The notes under the pieces: model-generated
What the model saw: the letters and a program-made list of their open reading frames with translations, nothing else
Databases searched by the model: none
Told to the model about the DNA's origin: nothing
From: Dacryopinax spathularia
Lineage: Eukaryota; Basidiomycota; Dacrymycetes; Dacrymycetales; Dacrymycetaceae
Length of the DNA stretch: 64,000 nucleotides
Assembly (NCBI GenBank): GCA_037974965.1
Contig: JBBPFI010000018.1
Coordinates: 62,001 to 126,000, forward strand
Direction of reading: 5' to 3'
Program-made: the position numbers and the translations under genes
In this document: positions 6,003 through 64,000 of the stretch, one piece after another
Layout of the letters: the number at the start of each line of letters is the position of its first letter
Numbering within the stretch: position 1 is the first letter of the stretch

Positions 6003-6090
6003 GCCCGGCTGGCGCAATCGGTTTAGCGCGTCAGACTCTTACTGCCAAAGTGGAATCTGAAGGTTGCGAGTTCGACCCTCGCGTTGGGCT
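6003..6090 (+). tRNA. tRNA-Lys(CTT) with a 13-nt intron
   Basis: A full cloverleaf can be drawn. The acceptor stem pairs 6003-6009 with 6083-6089 (two G-U pairs). The D arm lies around 6012-6029. The anticodon stem is TCAGA/TCTGA with loop CTCTTAA, and the T arm is GCGAG-TTCGACC-CTCGC (6066-6082). The anticodon CTT is at 6038-6040. A 13-nt intron (6042-6054) interrupts the loop one base 3' of the anticodon, the canonical position. The internal B box GTTCGACCC is intact. It decodes AAG lysine codons. The discriminator base would be T at 6090, which is unusual. Confidence 0.92.
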
Positions 6091-15486: not shown

Positions 15487-18400
15487 TTATGCCCCGAATT
15501 CCTCTATCACACTCCTGGGCTTGACATACTTGCCCAATGGCTTGTACGGAATCTCTGGGAATCTATAGGTATTTTCAATGAATAGACTCTCCACGCATGC
15601 AATCAATTCAACGCACCCAAATGCACGACAGTCACCGATCTCGAGACCGCGCGGCGTATCCGTCCATTGCGGAGCAGCAGTCACACCAATGATGATCACC
15701 CTCAAGCCGTACTTGTAATCAGGCGTGCCGAGTGCGGCGCCATTCTGGGCATCAACGACCATGATCAGGTCAGGCACGGTGGCAATAACCGTGGGCTTGC
15801 TCCCATCCTTCAGGTCATGCTCGCAGTACAGGTTTTCGTTCTTGAACGGGATCATGAGCGTGCCTTGGAACTGCTCTACCGGCCCGTCCGTGGGTTCCAC
15901 ATCGTCCTGGATGGCAGCGATGGTGACCTTGCCAACCGTGTGGCCCTTGTAGACGCTGCATGGTCTTCAGTACCGTGGTTGATCGTGACGAATGATGGCT
16001 CGCTTACGTTCGGCTCACGTCGATGATCTTACCGCTGAACAAGACCCGGCCGGTCTCCTTTCCACCCAAAGAGTCGATAATCACGTTGCCGACATTACCG
16101 AGTTGTGCAGATTTGCGGGCATAGGCGACGGCCCGACCAATCCTCCACGCGAGCGAGATCGTGTTGTGGATCATCGCGCGGCGGCAGTAGCCCGCGGTGA
16201 GGGGAGCAAGGGCGCAGCCGACAAAAGTCCCCATTTCGGTACAGGCGGCGCGCAGGGCAGCATCGTGATCGCGGTCAGTTTTGACCTTGGTCATGATCTG
16301 TGCCAGGATGAGAATGATGCTATATCTGTGCATGAGGAGAAACTCGCCATGATGTTCCCGTCTCCGCTAGAGATAACCGAAGGGAGCAGGTTCTTGGCTT
16401 TACCGGTATCGTCGTACACGTTAGGCGTAGTTTGCCAGCTCTGCTTATCTGTGAGCATCTTGCCACACCAGACTAGTTTTCGCGTACAGTTGGGTATGCG
16501 CGGCCCATAAAGTCGCCATCGATGATCGGCCAGCCGTAGACCGAGCTGCTGGCCAGCGTCATCTGCAACAACGTCAGGAGGTGTCGCCAACTCCAGTCAA
16601 GCGACATACGTTAATCATTCCGTTCGCACCGCCAATCTCGAGCGCAACAAGACCATCATACGGCTTCTTGATCTATCACCCACATCAGTACGAGCGATAA
16701 AGACAAGATCTAAAACACGCACGTTCATGAACTTGATCAACTCCTGCGTTGCCTCCGTATACTCCTCACCCAACAGCCTCTCATCCGCCACTTCCGGACT
16801 GCCCAGCCCCCCACCCCAGCCAAGCACCGCATCGTCCGGCAGACTCCCCAGGTCCTTGACGTTGATCACCTCCCCTCTGCGCACGGCCTCGCGTAGCTGG
16901 AGGAACATATGGTGCGGCGAGCCCCCGCCGCCACACCCGAGGATATAGCATCCTTCGGCGATCCATTCCAAGTCGAGTTCCGAGAGCTTCCACAGGCCTT
17001 TGCTGACGGAAGGGCGATAGTCCATGATCTCCTTGGCAGAGAGGACCTTTTCGGCTTCCTCAGGCTCGTAGTTGACGTCTTTCTCCCGTTCGTCCTCTGC
17101 CTCCTCATCCCCGTCGGTGAGCGAGTCAGCAGAAGAGTCAACGACGGCCTTCCACTCCCCAGCAGCCTTAACATAAAACCTGCATCTCCCCGCCGTATAA
17201 GCGATAGGAATCGCCTCACTCTCGATAATCGACACTTTCTCCGGATTGGCGCCAGCCTTGATAGCCAGGTCAACCGCGCGCTGCTCGATAAGCTTGCGCA
17301 CTTCTGCGATAGAGCGAGAGGAAATCTCTTCGACCGTGTCGACCGTTCCGGCGACTTGGGCGATGGCGGCTCCGCAGGCGTTGGCCACGCCGGAGTTCTT
17401 GAACCTGACCACGCGGGAGACGCCTTCGAGCTGGTCGGGGGCGAGGATCGCACCGCCGCCTACGAGATAGACAGGAATATCAGCGGCGGATGTTTTCCTA
17501 CAACATCGTCAGTCACTGTAACCACCTATCCTCAGAGGAGGAGGGAGATAAAGGGACGCACATCGAGTCCAACGTCGTCTCGAGCATAACCTTAATCCTC
17601 GCCTCGGCCTGCTCGACCACCTCCCTCCCCACCCCCTCGACCTTACTCTTATCCCCCACATCCTGCACCCGGCCAGAAGCGACCGCAATATCAGTCGCCG
17701 TCAGTGTTTTCCCCCCGAACACGAGCGCTTCCTGCAGGATCCTATAGCCCACGGAGTCGGGTCCCACTGTGGTCTTAGATCCGGGGACGTTGGGATTGGC
17801 GGGGCGGACTATGGACCCGCCCCCGAGGCCGACGGAGACTACGTCTGGCATGCTGAAGTTTAGACGGACGCCGCAGAGATGATGCCGAGCGGCTGCTTGG
17901 CGCGGGAAACCGGTGGGGAGGAGCATGCCTATGTCCGTCTGTGCACGCATGTCAGCATCCTGCCCTTAATGCCACCTCTACACCCCGCAGCGGTAACGCA
18001 GCGGTGGCAGGGTAGGAGGTGGAGTAGTAAAGGAGGAGGACGCACGGTAGTCCCCCCAATATCAACAACCAACGCCCCCTCCCCCCTCTCCTGCCCCATC
18101 TCCAGCTGCGCAAGAAACGCCGCCCCCCTCATACTATTCGTCGGCCCACTGCTGAAAGTCCTAATTGGATACATAGCCGCCTGCTCGCACGTCAACAGCG
18201 TCCCGTCGTTGCTCGTTATGAACACCGGACAGCGCAGGTTGAGCCTGCGCGCGGCGAGGCGGAAACCGCGGACGGTCTTGCGCGCGTAGGAGAGGAGGGC
18301 GGCGTTGAGTATGCTGGCGTTTTCGCGGTCTAGGAGGCCGATGTTGGAGATGTGTTTGCTCAGCGTTATTTGCGCGCCGGGGACGTGTTGTTTTACTAGG

Positions 18401-20462: not shown

Positions 20463-23400
20463 ATGAGCATCCCTATCGCCTCCAGCGTAATAGAAGGCGC
20501 CGAGCACCTCCTTTCCCAAGCAGAGAAAGCGGTCGAGTCTCTCGTGCACAAGGTCGAGGATGCCCTTCATTTGGGAGGGCAGCATGACCCGGAGGTCGTC
20601 TACCGGCTTGGTGTAGACGTAGGCGGTACAAATACGTACGTCTCCCTTCCTTGCGATGGAGTAGCAGCTGATAAGGATGGGACAGGGACGCGGTATGTCT
20701 AGCGCTGTCGTCAGATGAGAGCAAGAACGCGGTCGTTTCGGGCCATAAGAGCCCCACTACGGTCGACGTGATGGACGGGATCATCAACTCCGTCCAAAAG
20801 GTATTGGACGACGTCCCCGACCGGTCCAAGATCCAAGCTCTCTCCATCGGGACTACCGTACGTCTCCCTCCCCTCCCCCGTCACTCCTCCTTGCCCGCAT
20901 CCTAGGCTAGACTGCTGATGCTGTAATGGGAAGCATTTCGTAAACGCCCTTATAACGAGAGATCCGAGGAAGTTGCACAAAGTCGCCGTCATCCGTCTTT
21001 GTGGGCCGTTCAGCCGCAAATGCCCGCCGTTTGCCAGTTTCCCAAGGGAACTGAGGAGCAGTGCGTCCCCTCTCTTTCTTTCTCCCTCCTGGGCTGTGGA
21101 AATTGATTGTCGTGCTTTTCAGTCCTTCAGGGGCCGGTGTTTATGCTCTCCGGAGGACTTCAAATCGACGGCCGAGAGAGTACGCCCTCCCCTCCATTCC
21201 ACAGTCGAAGTGCATGATGAGCTAACCCGCCGCGCCCCACCCCGCAGTCGCCCCCGTCATCCCCTCCGAAATCGAGTCCGCCTGCGCCCAAATCCTCGCC
21301 TCCAACATCCGCGCCATCGCCATCTCCTCCGTCTACGCCCCGATCGACCATACCTACCGTCAAGAAGAAGCCGTCGCTGCGATCGTGCGCAAGCTAATCC
21401 CAAACGCGGACATAACGATCTCAAAGGAGATCTCCAATATCGGTCTCTTGGACCGCGAAAACGCTAGTATACTCAACGCCGCCCTCCTGCCCTATGCGCG
21501 CAAGACCGTCCGGGGGTTCAAGCAGGCCGCTAGGAGGCTGAAGCTGGACTGCCCGGTGTTCATTACGGGGAACGATGGGACGTTGTTGACGTGTGAGCAG
21601 GCGGCCAGGTTCCCCATTAGGACTTTCTCGAGTGGGCCGACGAACAGTATGCGGGGGGCGGCGTTTTTGGCCAAGATGGAGAGGGGGGTTGGGAGGGGTG
21701 AGGGGGCGTTGGTGTGCGATATTGGGGGGACGACGGTATGTGCCTCGTCAGCTTCTCTCCTCTTTTCTTCTCTTTTCACTTTCTCTCTTTATTCTCTCCT
21801 CTTCTGTTCTCCTGCTCTCCTGACCTGGGGCATGGAACGAGGCGGAGAGAGGATAGGATAAGAGGCGAGAAGAGGGAGGATGTGCAGGAATGACGGACGG
21901 GCTGACGCATCGTGCAGAGCGACGTAGGCATGCTCCTCCCCACCGGCTTCCCCCGCCAATCCGGGGCAAAACATCACCTCTGCGGCGTCCGGCTCAACTT
22001 CTCGATGCCAGACGTAGTCTCCATCGGCCTCGGGGGCGGCTCGCTCGTCCGCCCTCCTTCCCACGCAGGCGAAAAACCCACCGTCGGGCCCGACTCGGTC
22101 GGGTACAGGATATTGGAGGAAGCAAAGGTCTTTGGGGGTGATAAGCTGACTGCTACGGATATTGCTGTTGCTGCTGGAAGGGTTGATGTGGGTGATCGGA
22201 CTAGGGTGCGGGATGTGGACCCGGAGTTGGTGAGGGGCGTGGAGGCGAGGATTAAGAGTATGTTGGAGGCTACGCTGGATTCGATGTGCGTCCCTTCCCT
22301 CCTTCCTGCCTTTCTCTCGCCCTCAGCTGGGGGCTGCAGGTTGTTACAGTGACTGATACGATGTGCCAGGAAAACATCCGCCGCGGATATCCCCGTTTAC
22401 CTTGTAGGCGGAGGCGCCATCCTAGCTCCGGACCAGTTGAACGGCGTTTCCCGCGTCGTAAAATTCAAGAATTCGGGCGTAGCAAACGCCTGCGGAGCCG
22501 CCATAGCCCAAGTCGCGGGGACGGTCGACACGGTCGAGGAGATCGCTTCCCGCTCCATCTCCGACGTCCGGAAGATCATCGAGCAGCGCGCGATTGACCG
22601 GGCGGTCGAGGCGGGCGCGAACCCGGATAAGGTGGCGATTATCGAGAGTGAGGCTATCCCCATTGCGTATACTGCGGGGAGGTGCAGGTTTTATGTCAAG
22701 GCTGCTGGGGAGTGGAAGGGCGTTACTGGCTCCTCTGCCCCCGAGGCAGACGAGGAGGAGGAAAAAGAGGAAGAAGACGCCTCCCTGGTGAATGGCACCT
22801 ATGAGCCGGAAGAGCCCGAGCACGTCCCCACCGCACAGGAGATCCTGGACTATCGCCCGAACGTCAAGAACGGCGAATGGACCCTCTCGGAACTCGACCT
22901 CGAGTTCATCGCCGACGGAGCGTACATCCTCGGCTGTGGTGGCGGCGGCTCCCCATACCAGCGTTACCTGCGCCTAAGAGAAGGGTTCAGGAACGATGGA
23001 GAGGTGGTGAAGGTTATTGACTTGAGCTCGTTGCCGGATGAGGCGCTTATTGGTTGGGGTGGGGGGCTCGGGAGCCCAGAGGTCGCGGATGAAAGGCTGT
23101 CGGGGGATGAGTATAGGGAGGCTACGCAGGAGTTGCTGGACTTCATGGGGGTTCGCACAATCTCTCTCTCTCTCCGAATCTGTGCTGCGTATACTGAATT
23201 TGGTGCAGATCAAGAAACTCGCTGCATTCGCTGCCCTTGAGATTGGCGGCGGGAATGGGATGATCAACGTACGTTTAGCCCGAACTTTTGCTGCACCGTA
23301 CGAGACTGATCATCCTCCCAGATGACGCTCTCCAGCAGCAAGGTCTTTGGCTGGCCGACAATCGATGGCGACTTCATGGGCCGTGCTTACCCAACTGTGC

Positions 23401-57519: not shown

Positions 57520-58458
57520 ATGGCCCGTCCCATTGTTTTTTTCGATATACAGATCGGCGAGACGCCGGCCGGAAGGATTAAGATGGAGCTCTTCAGTGAT
57601 ATAGTCCCAAAGTGAGTGCCTTGCAACATTTGTGTACCGTGGCCTGATATGTGCCACGCAGAACTGCCGAGAACTTCAGGCAGTTGTGCACTGGCGAATA
57701 TCGGTAGGTCATACCCAACTCCTCCCCAATCTGATCGCCTATCCTGTGATGAAACAGGGTCAACAATCGTCCGCAGGGATATAAAGGAGCCTCTTTCCAC
57801 AGGTGTGCATGCGATAAGGATCGGTGACAGGGGACTGCTGACTGTTCACAGGGTGTAAGGACGCCTATCCCTGCGAGTTCGGTAGTACTGACTGCGGTCA
57901 GTGTTCGTGACTTCATGATACAGGGTAGGTTGGCGTTCGGATAGCTGACCCGTAGATCGGCTGAGGTCCCCTTTTCGAGCACAGGCGGGGACTTCCTGAA
58001 GGGAGACGGGACCGGGAGTTTCTCGATTTATGGGGACAAATTTGAGGTAGGTACACGTACCGCTCCACGGTTGCGGGCATGGAGCCGTGACTGAGTGGAG
58101 TTCAGGATGAGAACTTCACTGTTAAGCATACACAACCCGGTCTGCTATCTATGGCCAACTCTGGCCCCAATACCAACGGGTGCCAAGTAAGCAACTGCAA
58201 CTTCACTCCGACTCTCAGACGGCTCAAGGATTATATCTTTAGTTTTTCATCACTACGGGACCTTCAGATTTCCTGGACGGGAAACATGTTGTCTTCGGCA
58301 AGGTCATCGACGGCATGCTGACAGTGCGGAAGATCGAGAACGTGCCCACAGGCCCGAACAACCGACCAAAACTGGTGGTCAAGATTGTAGGTATGTGGCC
58401 TTCTTCCCCTTATAAGCAAGCCTGTAAATGTGTCCCTGCAGAGTGCGGAGAAATGTAA
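57520..58458 (+). CDS. PPIH: Cyclophilin H-like peptidyl-prolyl isomerase (tri-snRNP)
   Basis: Nine exons are proposed: 57520-57611, 57662-57703, 57758-57802, a 3-nt microexon 57852-57854, 57902-57924, 57985-58046, 58106-58186, 58243-58390 and 58442-58458, giving 170 residues. Motifs: [76 protein letters not shown] and [13 protein letters not shown], ending CGEM. These and the SIYG, PTGPNN and CGEM features match human PPIH, the cyclophilin of the U4/U6.U5 tri-snRNP, which assists pre-mRNA splicing in the nucleus. Without the microexon the joint would read FHS-VRD, one residue short and without the catalytic Arg; with it, FHRVVRDFM is exact. The gene is unusually dense in introns (eight in 0.94 kb). 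Confidence 0.93.
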
Positions 58459-58714: not shown

Positions 58715-61700
58715 CTACCTCGTTGGTCGCGACAACACCACGTTGCTCAAAGGCCAGGGAATCTTGCGTTCAGGTATAGAAGTACAGATGCACAAACAAT
58801 AGAAAGACTGTCTAATAACAAGTGAGATGGACGGAAGTCGAACAGAACCCACTAGATTGTCGAAAGAATCTACACACGCGTGAGCAGGTTAGTGACCATT
58901 GGTCCATTTCGGAACTGAGCAGGCTTACACCGCTGAGAAGGCCTTGAAGCTCGAGAGCTTCCTTCGATCGAAGAAAGTCTCGTCGCCAGAAATCATACCG
59001 AGGGGACCGCATCAGCTCGACCAGCGTAGCGATGGCTCCCCACGGATGTGGCTTGTGGACAAGGAACTTTTCTAGCAGGACCTTGGTCGCAATTTCCTGG
59101 AATGTCGCACTTTCCACTTCAGCGAATAGGTGGAGGACGACCGAGCTGAACCAATGAGTATGCGCATTGGGATAGCGCAAGTGCGTGGTGAGCGCAGTCA
59201 GCAGGTGATGTTGACCTGCAGTTTGAGATCAGTTCAGTCTGTCCCCGGTGTTCGCGAGGAACCTTACCTTCAGGGTCCAAGTCGGTGGCGAGCTTCTGGA
59301 TCAGTTGTACGCCAGGATCTGTGGGCACAAAGCCCAGCTGCCCACTTCTTGCCTTAGCCTGCGCCACCGAGGAGACTCCAACGTACATCACGAGAGCGTT
59401 CAAGACAGGCAGGTTGTAGCGCTCTCCCCCTGAGACGAGAACGGCTTCCGGCAACTGGATCCATGACTTGACCGTGCTTGGGAACGATGGAGATCCCCTG
59501 TTCAGCAAGAATTGATCCAAGGCACCTCGCAGATCTCCGTTCTTGAGCGAAGATGTGAAGTCCGAGAGAACCGGAGGAATTGGGCCAAGGTGTTCCATGG
59601 TCAGTGTGTGCGGTCCAACCGGGTCTGGCAGCGCAAGATTTGATGGGTAAGCGCTCAGCACGATGTTGCGCAACTGAACACAATTTGCGGGAATGTTGTC
59701 GCAGATTGTGAAATAATACTCGCTCAAGAATTCGGGGAAGTCATGAAGCAGAACCACCATGATGCGAAGAGTACCCCAATATAGCTCCCGAGAGCCCCTG
59801 TCCAGCTTGCTGCTTCGCAAGAATGGACCCAGGAAGCGGAGAAGGGATATAAGCAGGCGATGGAAAGGCGCCCACCCCTGCAGGGAAGTCTTCTTAGAAT
59901 AAAGCCAAATTTCGATGATGAGAAAGCTGTACCTCTCGATTCTCGGCATGCAACATCCGGGCCATGAACGCTCGATGCGAAACCAGAGCCATCCAACCAA
60001 ACGCGAAGCCGGGGAAATAAGCAGGTTGGAGCGTGTTGAACGTGTCACTAACAGCTGTCAGCGGCAGTCTGGGCAGATCGAATCCCTCGTACCTCATGGC
60101 CAGTAAGAGTTGCAGTTGGATATTAGATGCACTGGTATAAATGCTTTGGAGATCATTGAGCAGGCTGGAGAAGAGACGGAAAAAAGGCCGCGCTTCGAAG
60201 GTCTGACCATCACTTTCTTCGTGCGCGTGTGCGAGAACTAGGACGACGATAGACAGAGTCTTAGTTAAGTAATGTGCTTTCGCATGCTCGTTGTTCGCCT
60301 CGCCATGATATTTGACAATCATGGCCAACAGCTTCGAGAGGGCGTCCACGTGGAGATAAGGGTTGGCAGAAACCCCTGCACGTAGTGCAGCGGTGGTACG
60401 CTCTACACTGACCTCGGCGCAGACTCGGAAAAAGAGAGATGAAATATCTTCGCCGCGCAGGATGGCTTGCATCTCCGGGTGCGTAACGAAATCGATGAAG
60501 CTTTGCTCAAGGTTCGTTGACTGGTGGAATGACCGAACCCAACTCTTGAAGTAAGTGGCCAAGGTGTTGTAAGGTCCCTTCTCTTCTGGACCTTGGATTT
60601 GCTTGATCAAAGAGGCAGCCCTGCAAACGCTCAGCGGTGTTTCTGTGGACGGCACCTCGGGGTACTTACGCATCAGTCGCCTTTCCAGCCGTCATAGCTC
60701 GGAGTAGAGCTTCATAACAGATAGGAAAGAGATGTCTCCAACCGCCAGCAGCGTCGGCAGTGGATGTCTCGCGAACCAAAGCCGCTGCAAAGTCCACAAA
60801 CGCAGGTCGGAAATCGTGCATTACTGCCCGACCGATGGCAGCGTCCAGGTCATGAGGATCTATGAGCCTCACTCGCAGAAGAGCCAAAGTCACCTCCAAA
60901 TTGAGCTTTCTCTGTGGAACAGTATGAGAATCAAGGTGGACAGGCCCTAATGTTGCGCCTCACCTCGTCGTCGGACAACACGAGCCATTCCACCACTTCC
61001 TTCCGCACCGCGGGAAGTGCCAGGCAAAATTGCTGTAGGAGATAAACATAGACCTCCCTGGATAGGTGGTTTGAACCCTTGTACAACTCGGCTGCGATCC
61101 GCTGAGCGGCCATCATGCCGATCCGGTTCTCGTCTTCAGTCTTCGAAGGCAGCAGAAGCAGCTCCTTGATCAAAGAGGTGATGTTATGGCTCGGCCCAAG
61201 TTCCCGGATGTCACGCTCGGTCGACTGGTTCAAGACGAGTGCTAGATCCTCCGACAATATCTGTGAGACAAGCGCTAAGTCCATATTCCCGTTCGATGAG
61301 CACGTGCGTACATTCAATCTCTCTACAGCAGCTTCAAAGGACAGGACGGAATCCATGCCGGTGTCTGTAGGTTCGCCTTCATCCAGCAGACGGCGATTGC
61401 TATACTGCTCTTGGTACACAGGGGACGGACCAGACGGTACGACATGGCGATTGCCTGCAGCTGAGTCAGTCAGTAACTTCTTCCAAAAATATCGGACTTC
61501 GCGTACCGAAATCATCATACACCCGCATTTGAGGATGGCTCAAACCAGCTGGGTTTAATCTCAGGCTGTCCGGCCATTTGTTGCGTACAACGTAATCTGG
61601 GGGAGCAGACCCATCCGCGCCATACCAGAATGGTTGTCCAGGTCGTTGCTGTGGAGAATTAGCGAAAAGCATGTGCATTCGGGGTGAGCAGGCTCACTTC

Positions 61701-64000
61701 TCTGTGACGATATCTCGCGATGTAAGCAGGTTCCAAGGCTTTGTCAACGTCCGCCACCGCCCGTTCCATGGCGGCTCTCTCGATAACGTTACATGCAGCA
61801 TTCAGATTATCCTGAACGAGGAGCAAGATTGCTTGCTCGGAGAACATTTGCTGTCCCCACCATAATCAGCAAAAGGATGACCGGCAGGAGGAAGCAAGCA
61901 GACCTCTGTTATGCCGTGTTCCAATAAGATGGAACGGAGGTGAGTGACCATGTTGATGCGAAGGGGCTCCTTGCAAGTGACAAGAGCCAAGTTGCCCGCA
62001 AGGTTCCTGACTGTTAAGTGCGCAGCGTTTCGCATCCGATCTTCGTCAACTTCCATGGCAAAATCCTTCAGCACTAGTTGCTGTGTAGAGATGCTCGCGA
62101 TCGTTACCGATCGATCGACCACGGGGACGATGATCTCGCGAACGGCACCTTCGATCGCTACCTGCACGAGCCTCTTGAAGTTCTCATGCTCTGCATACGG
62201 GCCCAGCTGGGGATTAAGAGTGATCGCGCCTTCGAGAGATGTTACGATCCCATCGCCTTGTAATGCAGCCTGGCCTGCCGTGGACTCCAGGTGTGGTATT
62301 GTATGAGCCGAGGTCTCGACCCGGGGCAAAGTGCTATAACCGTCCATGGGGAGACTATCCACGTCGCCGACGTACTCGTCACTTGGTCCCGCGTCCAGGT
62401 CCAATACCGGGCGGTGCCGTAGGAGATCTGTAGGCTCGACCTTTTCCAGGTCAATATCCAGAGCGATGCAGAGCACTTCAATCTCGAACTTCAGGTTTAG
62501 CACGAGGTCGGCGCCGAAGTAGAACTCGGCCAGCAACCGAATGAGCCCAGAAAGCCACGGATTCGGCAAATGGAATATCGTAGACTTTGCGCATTGTTCC
62601 AATATCTTGCACACGAAAGGGATGGCAACTACGAGTCGGGACGAATCGTAGCCCTCCAACAGGATGTTCTTCAACGCAAGGTTCCTATGCTTGATTGGCT
62701 TATCTTTTGCCAAGGTCATAATGCCGATCCATGAGCCGAGGTTCTTGAGTACAGATCTCTCTGCTGCCACGTGCAATGCTGTTTCGGAGTTCAACAGTGT
62801 CCTGGCTTTGACGATAGCCTCGTTGAAGACGTGTTTGAGCAGCAGTGGCCGACCAAGAAGGTCGAGAAATTTGATGTAGAGCTCGTGATTGTTCAGCTCG
62901 GAGCTGATACGCTGATTCACCAGGTAATGTGCGAACCAGCGCGAATATTCGTCCTTGAAGATCTCGCGCATATCGTTTGATTTTGCCTCGCAATTGCTCA
63001 TGGCAAGGTTGTTGACGATGAAGAGCATCTGGTCGGCTTCCCCTTCGACCGGTATGGTGGGGCTGTCTCCAGTAATTACGTCGGGACTAATCGAATGAAA
63101 CGGTGGGTTTGCGATATCGGAACCTTCGAGCATGCCATCTACTTCGGAAGCTGGGAGATCTTGCAGGTTACTAGCTCTATCGGCTTGGAAAAGGGCTTGC
63201 CGAGCGATGTCGGCAATATCCGGTCGATTCTCTTGTAAGTGTGGCAAAGCTAGAAGTGCATGACACAACTCCCTCCATTCGCCTAGACGCGAACGAAATC
63301 GAAGCAGAGCCTGGACCCCAAACTTGAACATGTTTGAATCGGGTGATTGGCGTAGAGCATCCAGTACGTAGCGTATGGCGATACCGAGGGGAATATGATC
63401 GACCAGGTTCTGATCGATAATGGCTCCAAATAGTACGGCCGTAATCGCCAGTTCCCGGGGGGGATACACTGGGAAAAACTTGTACTCGTCGAACAGAGTG
63501 TGCAACATACAGGCGAACACGTCATGATCCCGCGGAGCAGTTGAGCTCTTGTACTGCTGTAGTAGATGCAGAACATGATCCACAGGAACTTCTTCTTCAT
63601 ACATGCGCTTGAAGATAGTTTCCGCTTCGGCTTCGATGTCTTGGGGGAAACTGACAACACTCATGCCCGGCTCTTGATCAGAACCCGGTGCAAGGTTCAT
63701 AAGGCGTGGATGAAGCTGCAAACACGCATTGCGAATTTCCCTGAAGAACTCGACATCGGCTCTGGTCCAGTTCGCACCGCTGACATCAGGCGTGAACAAA
63801 TGCGCTGGGATTTGAGCGAGCTCAATCATACCTTCTTCGCAAAAACGATATAAAGATCGCGATAGTCTGCGCGTTAAGCGATAAAGTGCGAAGCTCCGCA
63901 CCATCATCTCTCGACATATCGGTTTTTACCTTGTGATCCAGGAATTCCATGATTGCGTGCGTGAAAGTGTCTCCATGCAGAGCATAACTGTCGGCTAGCC
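58715..64000 (-). CDS. NOT1: Not1, scaffold of the CCR4-NOT complex (5' end beyond window)
   Basis: Ten exons (64000-63832 partial, 63779-61904, 61850-61698, 61648-61507, 61454-60964, 60911-60670, 60620-59933, 59877-59268, 59215-58931, 58869-58715) encode ~1,600 residues; the N-terminal part lies past the right edge. In order: an HEAT-type region with DVFACMLHTLFDEYKFFP, the MIF4G domain that binds Caf1 (LKNLGSWIGIMTLAKDKPI), a DUF3819 region (EIIVPVVDRSVTIASISTQQ) and the Not1 C-terminal superfamily homology domain (LLHDFPEFLSEYYFTICDNIP, YPNAHTHWFSSVVLHLFAE, LVHKPHPWGAIATLVELM). Not1 holds the deadenylases and Not2/Not5 together for mRNA decay and translational repression in the cytoplasm. 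The last exon is uncertain: a CACTAACC branch site supports an intron at 58870-58930, but reading through would stop at 58812. Confidence 0.94.

Follow-up and report, generated by a model that had tools for sequence, protein, structure and literature searches.

A Predicted Three-Nucleotide Exon in the Cyclophilin H Gene of Dacryopinax spathularia

The window, a 64,000-nt stretch of the Dacryopinax spathularia genome, carries a gene on its forward strand (57520-58458), for which spliced alignment gave nine exons and a product of 170 residues. Exon 1 (57520-57611), which begins with the ATG at 57520 and was placed by sequence and spliced alignment, is followed by exon 2 (57662-57703; spliced alignment) and by exon 3 (57758-57802), which ends in phase 2 with TTC CAC AG, as read both in the sequence and in the alignment. 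The fourth exon consists of the three nucleotides GGT (57852-57854). Directly after the second of its flanking introns comes exon 5 (57902-57924), itself only 23 nt long, followed by exon 6 (57985-58046), exon 7 (58106-58186), and exon 8 (58243-58390), all placed by spliced alignment, and by exon 9 (58442-58458), which includes the stop codon and was placed by spliced alignment and model enumeration. The introns measure, in order, 50, 54, 49, 47, 60, 59, 56, and 51 nt.

The original prediction had named the product cyclophilin H (PPIH), and this identity was borne out by comparison with the other cyclophilins of the genome. With the human PPIH template, the 57520-58458 locus had the highest score among 14 cyclophilin loci (549, with 117 of 167 aligned residues identical), while the other 13 loci scored from 109 to 468, headed by L020 (468, 98/167) and L018 (446). 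The predicted product matched human PPIH without gaps (E = 1.5e-81, residues 3-170), the next PDB sequence having an E-value of 1.3e-70, and it matched Pfam PF00160 over positions 2-158 of 159, leaving the domain intact. Based on the gap-free match and the top score among the 14 loci, the gene is very probably orthologous to PPIH. PPIH is a U4/U6 snRNP cyclophilin, and by orthology the predicted product would be expected to bind the U4/U6 snRNP.

Downstream of the PPIH gene and convergent with it, reading frames on the reverse strand (59122-63925) match domains of CCR4-NOT subunit 1 (NOT1). Elsewhere in the window, two frames with S-Me-THD-like N-terminal domains (PF06032) lie about 5 kb apart, at 16618-17508 on the reverse strand and 22353-23237 on the forward strand. 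A tRNA-Arg (TCT) is found at 6003-6090 on the forward strand; it perhaps contains an intron, since its 88 nt exceed the 71-position model. A search for 5.8S rRNA gave no match.

The GGT exon lies between intron 3 (57803-57851, forward strand, 49 nt), which reads GTGTGC...CTGAC...CAG, and intron 4 (57855-57901, forward strand, 47 nt), which reads GTAAGG...CTGAC...CAG. Both are GT-AG introns, each with its own uninterrupted GT, CTGAC, and CAG; the branch-like CTGAC motifs occupy 57838-57842 and 57888-57892, respectively, on the same strand, and the branch A is positioned 10 nt upstream of the intron end in both. These signals are like those carried by other introns of the genome. The AG directly before the exon is at 57850-57851, and the GT that follows it starts at 57855. 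An Arg codon (AG^G) takes its third base from the exon, and a Val codon (GT^T) takes its first two from it. Upon re-reading of the sequence, the positions originally given for the donor (57803), for GGT (57852-57854), and for the start of the next exon (57902) were found to be right, as were the lengths of the two introns and their GT, CTGAC, and CAG signals.

Removal of both introns yields FHRVVRDFM, which is equal in length to FHRVIKDFM of human PPIH and aligns with it without a gap, whereas joining 57802 straight to 57902 yields FHSVRDFM, a 169-residue product that keeps the frame but loses the Arg and one residue; both outcomes had been foreseen in the original prediction. The Arg at FHR corresponds to Arg55, the catalytic arginine of cyclophilin A. 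The HR pair, with its spacing to the next conserved residues, is kept in 13/13 other cyclophilin loci. Retention of intron 3, of intron 4, or of both, as well as mixed use of the tandem donors, would truncate the protein at 61-67 residues.

The splice structure was examined with a custom aligner of proteins to genomic DNA, which can place very short exons other than those of 1-2 nt lying within one codon. Three templates were each run at four intron penalties with no hint of the exon, and the 3-nt exon was picked in all 12 runs; it was picked again when trained splice scores were used. Splice models were also enumerated exhaustively over the span 57758-57924, permitting at most two introns, each of at least 25 nt, with GT-AG, GC-AG, or AT-AC borders. 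This gave 1847 models, 441 of them in frame without stops. Ranked by protein similarity summed over the three templates, the GGT model came first (1803), in agreement with the reading originally proposed, and it was the only enumerated model to give the length of human PPIH together with Arg-Val. Models with GC-AG and AT-AC introns were included, and none beat it.

Direct splicing scored 1740 in the same enumeration, and the Pfam PF00160 match, which reached 177.8 bits with the GGT exon, dropped to 165.3 bits with the direct join. The GGT exon is needed to restore the conserved protein.

Splice signals were compared using donor and acceptor scores trained on 172 introns of cyclophilin, actin, and Ras-family genes from the same genome, with the two test introns left out, and supplemented by a hand-set branch-site matrix and length preference. 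Fifty-seven of the 64 searched sources met the score cut-off of 200 (the seven that were dropped include cyclophilin loci L011, L015, and L021), and they represent 41 distinct gene models, near-identical copies among them. Against this sample, intron 3 lies at the 91st percentile and intron 4 at the 16th. The donor of intron 3 scored 7.49 bits. The donor of intron 4 is weak (2.84 bits, 10th-25th percentile) and the exonic bases GGT are a poor fit, both of which count against the GGT model.

The simplest reading of the region is that a single 99-nt intron (57803-57901) is removed and that the GGT exon is accidental. The donor and acceptor of such an intron are usable, the frame is kept, and the model scores at the 40th percentile, which likewise counts against the GGT model. 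The product, however, would be one residue short and would lack an Arg present in 13/13 other cyclophilin loci, and its Pfam score is 12.5 bits worse. The other six introns of the gene are 50-60 nt long, and 135 of the 172 sampled introns fall between 45 and 66 nt (the shortest GT-AG intron being 44 nt). A single intron of 99 nt would thus be unusual but still possible, as 13 of the 172 measure 90 nt or more. Taken together, removal of one 99-nt intron appears highly improbable.

Models with other borders also keep the frame and the Arg. The second-ranked model of the 441 on protein similarity (1791) has its 3-nt exon at 57860-57862, requires a GC-AG intron of 39 nt, and would read FHRTVRDFM, but its first acceptor scores 1.09 bits, compared with 6.97 bits, and its second intron, at 39 nt, is below the 44-nt minimum of the 172 GT-AG introns used for scoring. 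Shifted single introns at 57824-57901 and 57805-57885 insert extra residues directly after the Arg, have Pfam scores of 167.4 and 167.3 bits, and lie at the 10th and 2nd percentile, respectively. Such borders are scarcely credible.

A different alternative, overlooked in the original prediction, also keeps both the Arg and the length of the protein. If tandem donors at 57805 and 57853 were used, introns 57805-57851 and 57853-57901 would leave a single G (57852) as the exon, and the product would read FHRCVRDFM, with the Cys codon spread over three exons. This model lies beyond what the aligner can represent and was tested by enumeration rather than by alignment runs. It is in frame, ranked third of all models (1788), or second when the count is restricted to GT-AG models whose introns are 40 nt or longer, and its Pfam score (176.7 bits) is just 1.1 bits below that of the GGT model. 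Cyclophilin L010 has a Cys at the same place (FHRCI), and the AGGGT sequence is shared with the one-nucleotide exon described for Fusarium CYP621A (PMC12940212). Its donors, on the other hand, reach 2.32 and 1.53 bits, whereas those of the GGT model reach 7.49 and 2.84 bits, a combined difference of 6.5 bits when exonic bases are taken from the unspliced sequence. Six of the sampled introns have a competing GT 2 nt from the donor, and in all six the inferred donor had the higher score, although donors were partly picked by such scores. The one-nucleotide exon is the main structural rival and is disfavoured by the donor scores; it is considered very unlikely.

In this comparison the donors of the GGT model beat those of the closest GT-AG rival. 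GGT at 57852-57854 is very likely a real exon flanked by the two introns as described, and it is predicted to be present in the mature RNA.

The frequency with which a comparable exon might arise by chance was estimated from dinucleotide-shuffled versions of the 99-nt interval (n = 20000), with the first 6 nt and the final AG fixed and 3-nt exons alone being considered. In 166 of the 20000 shuffles, a 3-nt exon encoding R+[V/I/L] could be formed while neither intron fell below 44 nt, and in only 5 did both introns also score at least as high as the weaker observed intron. When the last 18 nt, containing the true branch and acceptor, were fixed as well, the counts were 151/20000 and 8/20000. 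Among 83 real 99-nt GT..AG stretches, one contained such an exon and none did so with adequate scores. The probability that an equally good 3-nt exon arises by chance is low.

Comparisons with related sequences provided a further view of the twin introns. None of the 10 other cyclophilins of the refined set has an intron where intron 3 or intron 4 is located, a result that counts against the GGT model; within this set, the twin introns are thus particular to the PPIH gene. A pattern search of the genome, allowing up to 3 mismatches, revealed no spliced retrocopy of PPIH. Five cyclophilin loci in a viral genome collection were distant and of no use as an orthologue comparison.

Template-based predictions for the sampled genes comprised 142 internal exons, 32 of which are 30 nt or shorter and seven of which are 6 nt or shorter. 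In addition to the 3-nt exon of PPIH, these seven are found in two Rab genes (5 nt each), three actin copies (6 nt each), and one Ras gene (6 nt). The actin copies L022, L023, and L026 are located on contigs C1 and C2. In L022 and L023, the 6-nt exon reads TCGCAG; it is flanked by introns of 59 nt and 53 nt, and its inclusion recovers the AGFAGDD present in the human template. The 6-nt exon of L026 is known by length alone. L023 is near-identical to L022 in its exon lengths and in most of the protein, and is gapped and divergent near the C-terminal end, as if decaying. The Rab genes L042 and L044, on contig C4, have human Rab1A as their best template and carry the 5-nt exons AAATT and GAACC at the same codon position, in the contexts GGGAAATC followed by AAATT and then TGC, and GGGAAATC followed by GAACC and then TGC. 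Because the two exons share this codon position, while their introns appear unrelated by eye, the comparison suggests that the tiny Rab exon may have been kept since the duplication that gave rise to L042 and L044. In the alignments that were inspected, which covered L022, L023, and the two Rab genes, the tiny exons restore a gap-free match to the human template.

Two further candidates were discounted, and the aligner's occasional output of such doubtful tiny exons counts against the GGT model. The 6-nt exon of the Ras gene L064 adjoins a 2-residue insertion and is a doubtful product of the aligner. Among the ubiquitin-conjugating loci, nine of 12 were counted (two scored below 200 and one was a duplicate), giving 21 internal exons with a single tiny one, the 2-nt exon of L086, which is located beside an insertion and is probably an artefact of the 130-nt intron limit. 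With all exons predicted from protein templates, that of PPIH would be the shortest credible one in the sampled genes, and the candidate exons of 5-6 nt in the actin and Rab genes suggest that exons of this size are tolerated in the genome.

The small size of the PPIH exon would follow from its position, as two phase-2 introns that sit one codon apart leave 3 nt between them. Intron definition is consistent with introns of about 50 nt whose signals are complete, and each of the two may be recognised in this manner. Since the splice sites flanking the exon are 3 nt apart, two spliceosomes could hardly be seated there together, and the removal of introns 3 and 4 would be sequential. Inclusion of the exon is probably constitutive, and the exon itself is probably a by-product of dense short-intron insertion. 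An origin of the twin introns by tandem duplication was considered and set aside. Introns 3 and 4, each with 10 nt of upstream sequence, gave an alignment score of 36. Of the 3828 pairs that can be formed from 88 introns 44-56 nt in length, 190 (5%) reached this score, so that the resemblance of introns 3 and 4 does not clearly stand out. The direct repeats between the twin introns coincide with the splice signals that they share.

Sequential removal has been argued on the same grounds in Arabidopsis APC11, whose single-nucleotide exon is constitutive and was tested in vivo; the authors of that study considered intron definition with successive intron removal to be most plausible (PMC4674806). 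APC11 is a plant gene with an exon of 1 nt, whereas the PPIH exon is fungal and has 3 nt. The stwintrons of ascomycetes are similar in that two close introns are removed consecutively, but in a stwintron a splice signal of one intron is split by the other, whereas both PPIH introns are complete and 3 exonic nucleotides remain (PMC9024468, PMC6616335). A stwintron at the PPIH locus was ruled out, as the GT, CTGAC, and CAG of neither intron are interrupted.

A regulated cassette would be compatible with this explanation, inclusion of the GGT exon leading to active PPIH and skipping leading to an in-frame protein without the catalytic Arg. Such a regulated skip is conceivable because skipping keeps the frame, while every tested retention or mixed-donor product is truncated; the second donor is also weak. 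In addition, a perfect 10-nt inverted repeat, formed by CGCAGGGATA in exon 3 (57772-57781) and TATCCCTGCG in intron 4 (57866-57875), encloses intron 3 and the exon and is predicted to pair strongly in the isolated 167-nt stretch (pairing probability 0.42-1.00). Inverted repeats of 10 nt or more were, however, present in 7 of 1000 shuffles, and in a 581-nt context the pairing probability was at most 0.02. The whole 167-nt fold has a z-score of -1.10. An RNA hairpin at the tiny exon was considered and set aside, and the repeat is left as a curiosity. Regulation of the exon as a cassette is very doubtful. A related and very improbable proposal is that the exon might act as a sensor of splicing quality within the gene of a splicing factor, such that two consecutive splicing steps would supply the catalytic Arg and give active PPIH, whereas faltering splicing would skip the exon in frame and give an enzymatically dead PPIH, with possible feedback on the tri-snRNP. 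The preferred reading is a GGT exon that is probably constitutive and spliced by intron definition.

The original prediction placed three bases near the lower limit for exons. This does not hold, as exons of one nucleotide, backed by RNA evidence, have been reported in Fusarium CYP621A and Arabidopsis APC11. The CYP621A exon was described for 24 genes, with sequence reads in two species, and was called the smallest in fungi (PMC12940212). Like the PPIH exon, it is a fungal, ultra-short exon between two GT-AG introns in a conserved motif and was inferred first from the protein; it differs in being 1 nt long and confirmed by reads, whereas the PPIH exon has 3 nt, occurs in a single gene, and is a prediction (PMC12940212). 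A one-nucleotide exon is also described for VPS55, across a wider range of plants (PMC8831610).

In basidiomycetes, the shortest exons given for bglA are 5 bp in Sirobasidium and 6 bp in Rhodotorula minuta (PMC9142197), and the shortest given for Phanerochaete P450 genes is 6 bp (PMC1184071). These are likewise intron-dense fungal genes with short introns, the PPIH exon differing in its length of 3 nt and in belonging to a cyclophilin. Exons of three base pairs have been mentioned in other settings. The 3-bp micro-exon of Drosophila homothorax, which is derived from within a 48-nt exon, is an internal exon of the same length, but it is animal and alternative (PMC7392893). The 3-bp exons mentioned for mitochondrial genes are fungal, as is the PPIH exon, but their introns are not spliceosomal (PMC12308204). 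A Ganoderma gpd construct is described with a "3-bp exon 2", a phrase that may refer to no more than the initial 3 bp of exon 2 (PMC8379801). Among the open-licence papers listed on 3-nt exons, basidiomycete microexons, and cyclophilin microexons, no title or abstract opening described such an exon in PPIH. The 3-nt exon of PPIH is an extreme example of already known ultra-short exons.

The principle being already known, what is gained is an example and a pattern across genes, rather than a new mechanism. For annotation, the locus serves as a warning, as a gene caller that misses GGT drops a codon and makes the enzyme look dead. If confirmed, the exon would be a nuclear fungal exon of 3 nt, probably constitutive, that contributes to a catalytic codon of a spliceosomal protein. 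Along with the 5-6-nt exons predicted for the actin and Rab genes, it would make this genome a good one in which to ask what is the smallest exon that intron-definition splicing can manage.
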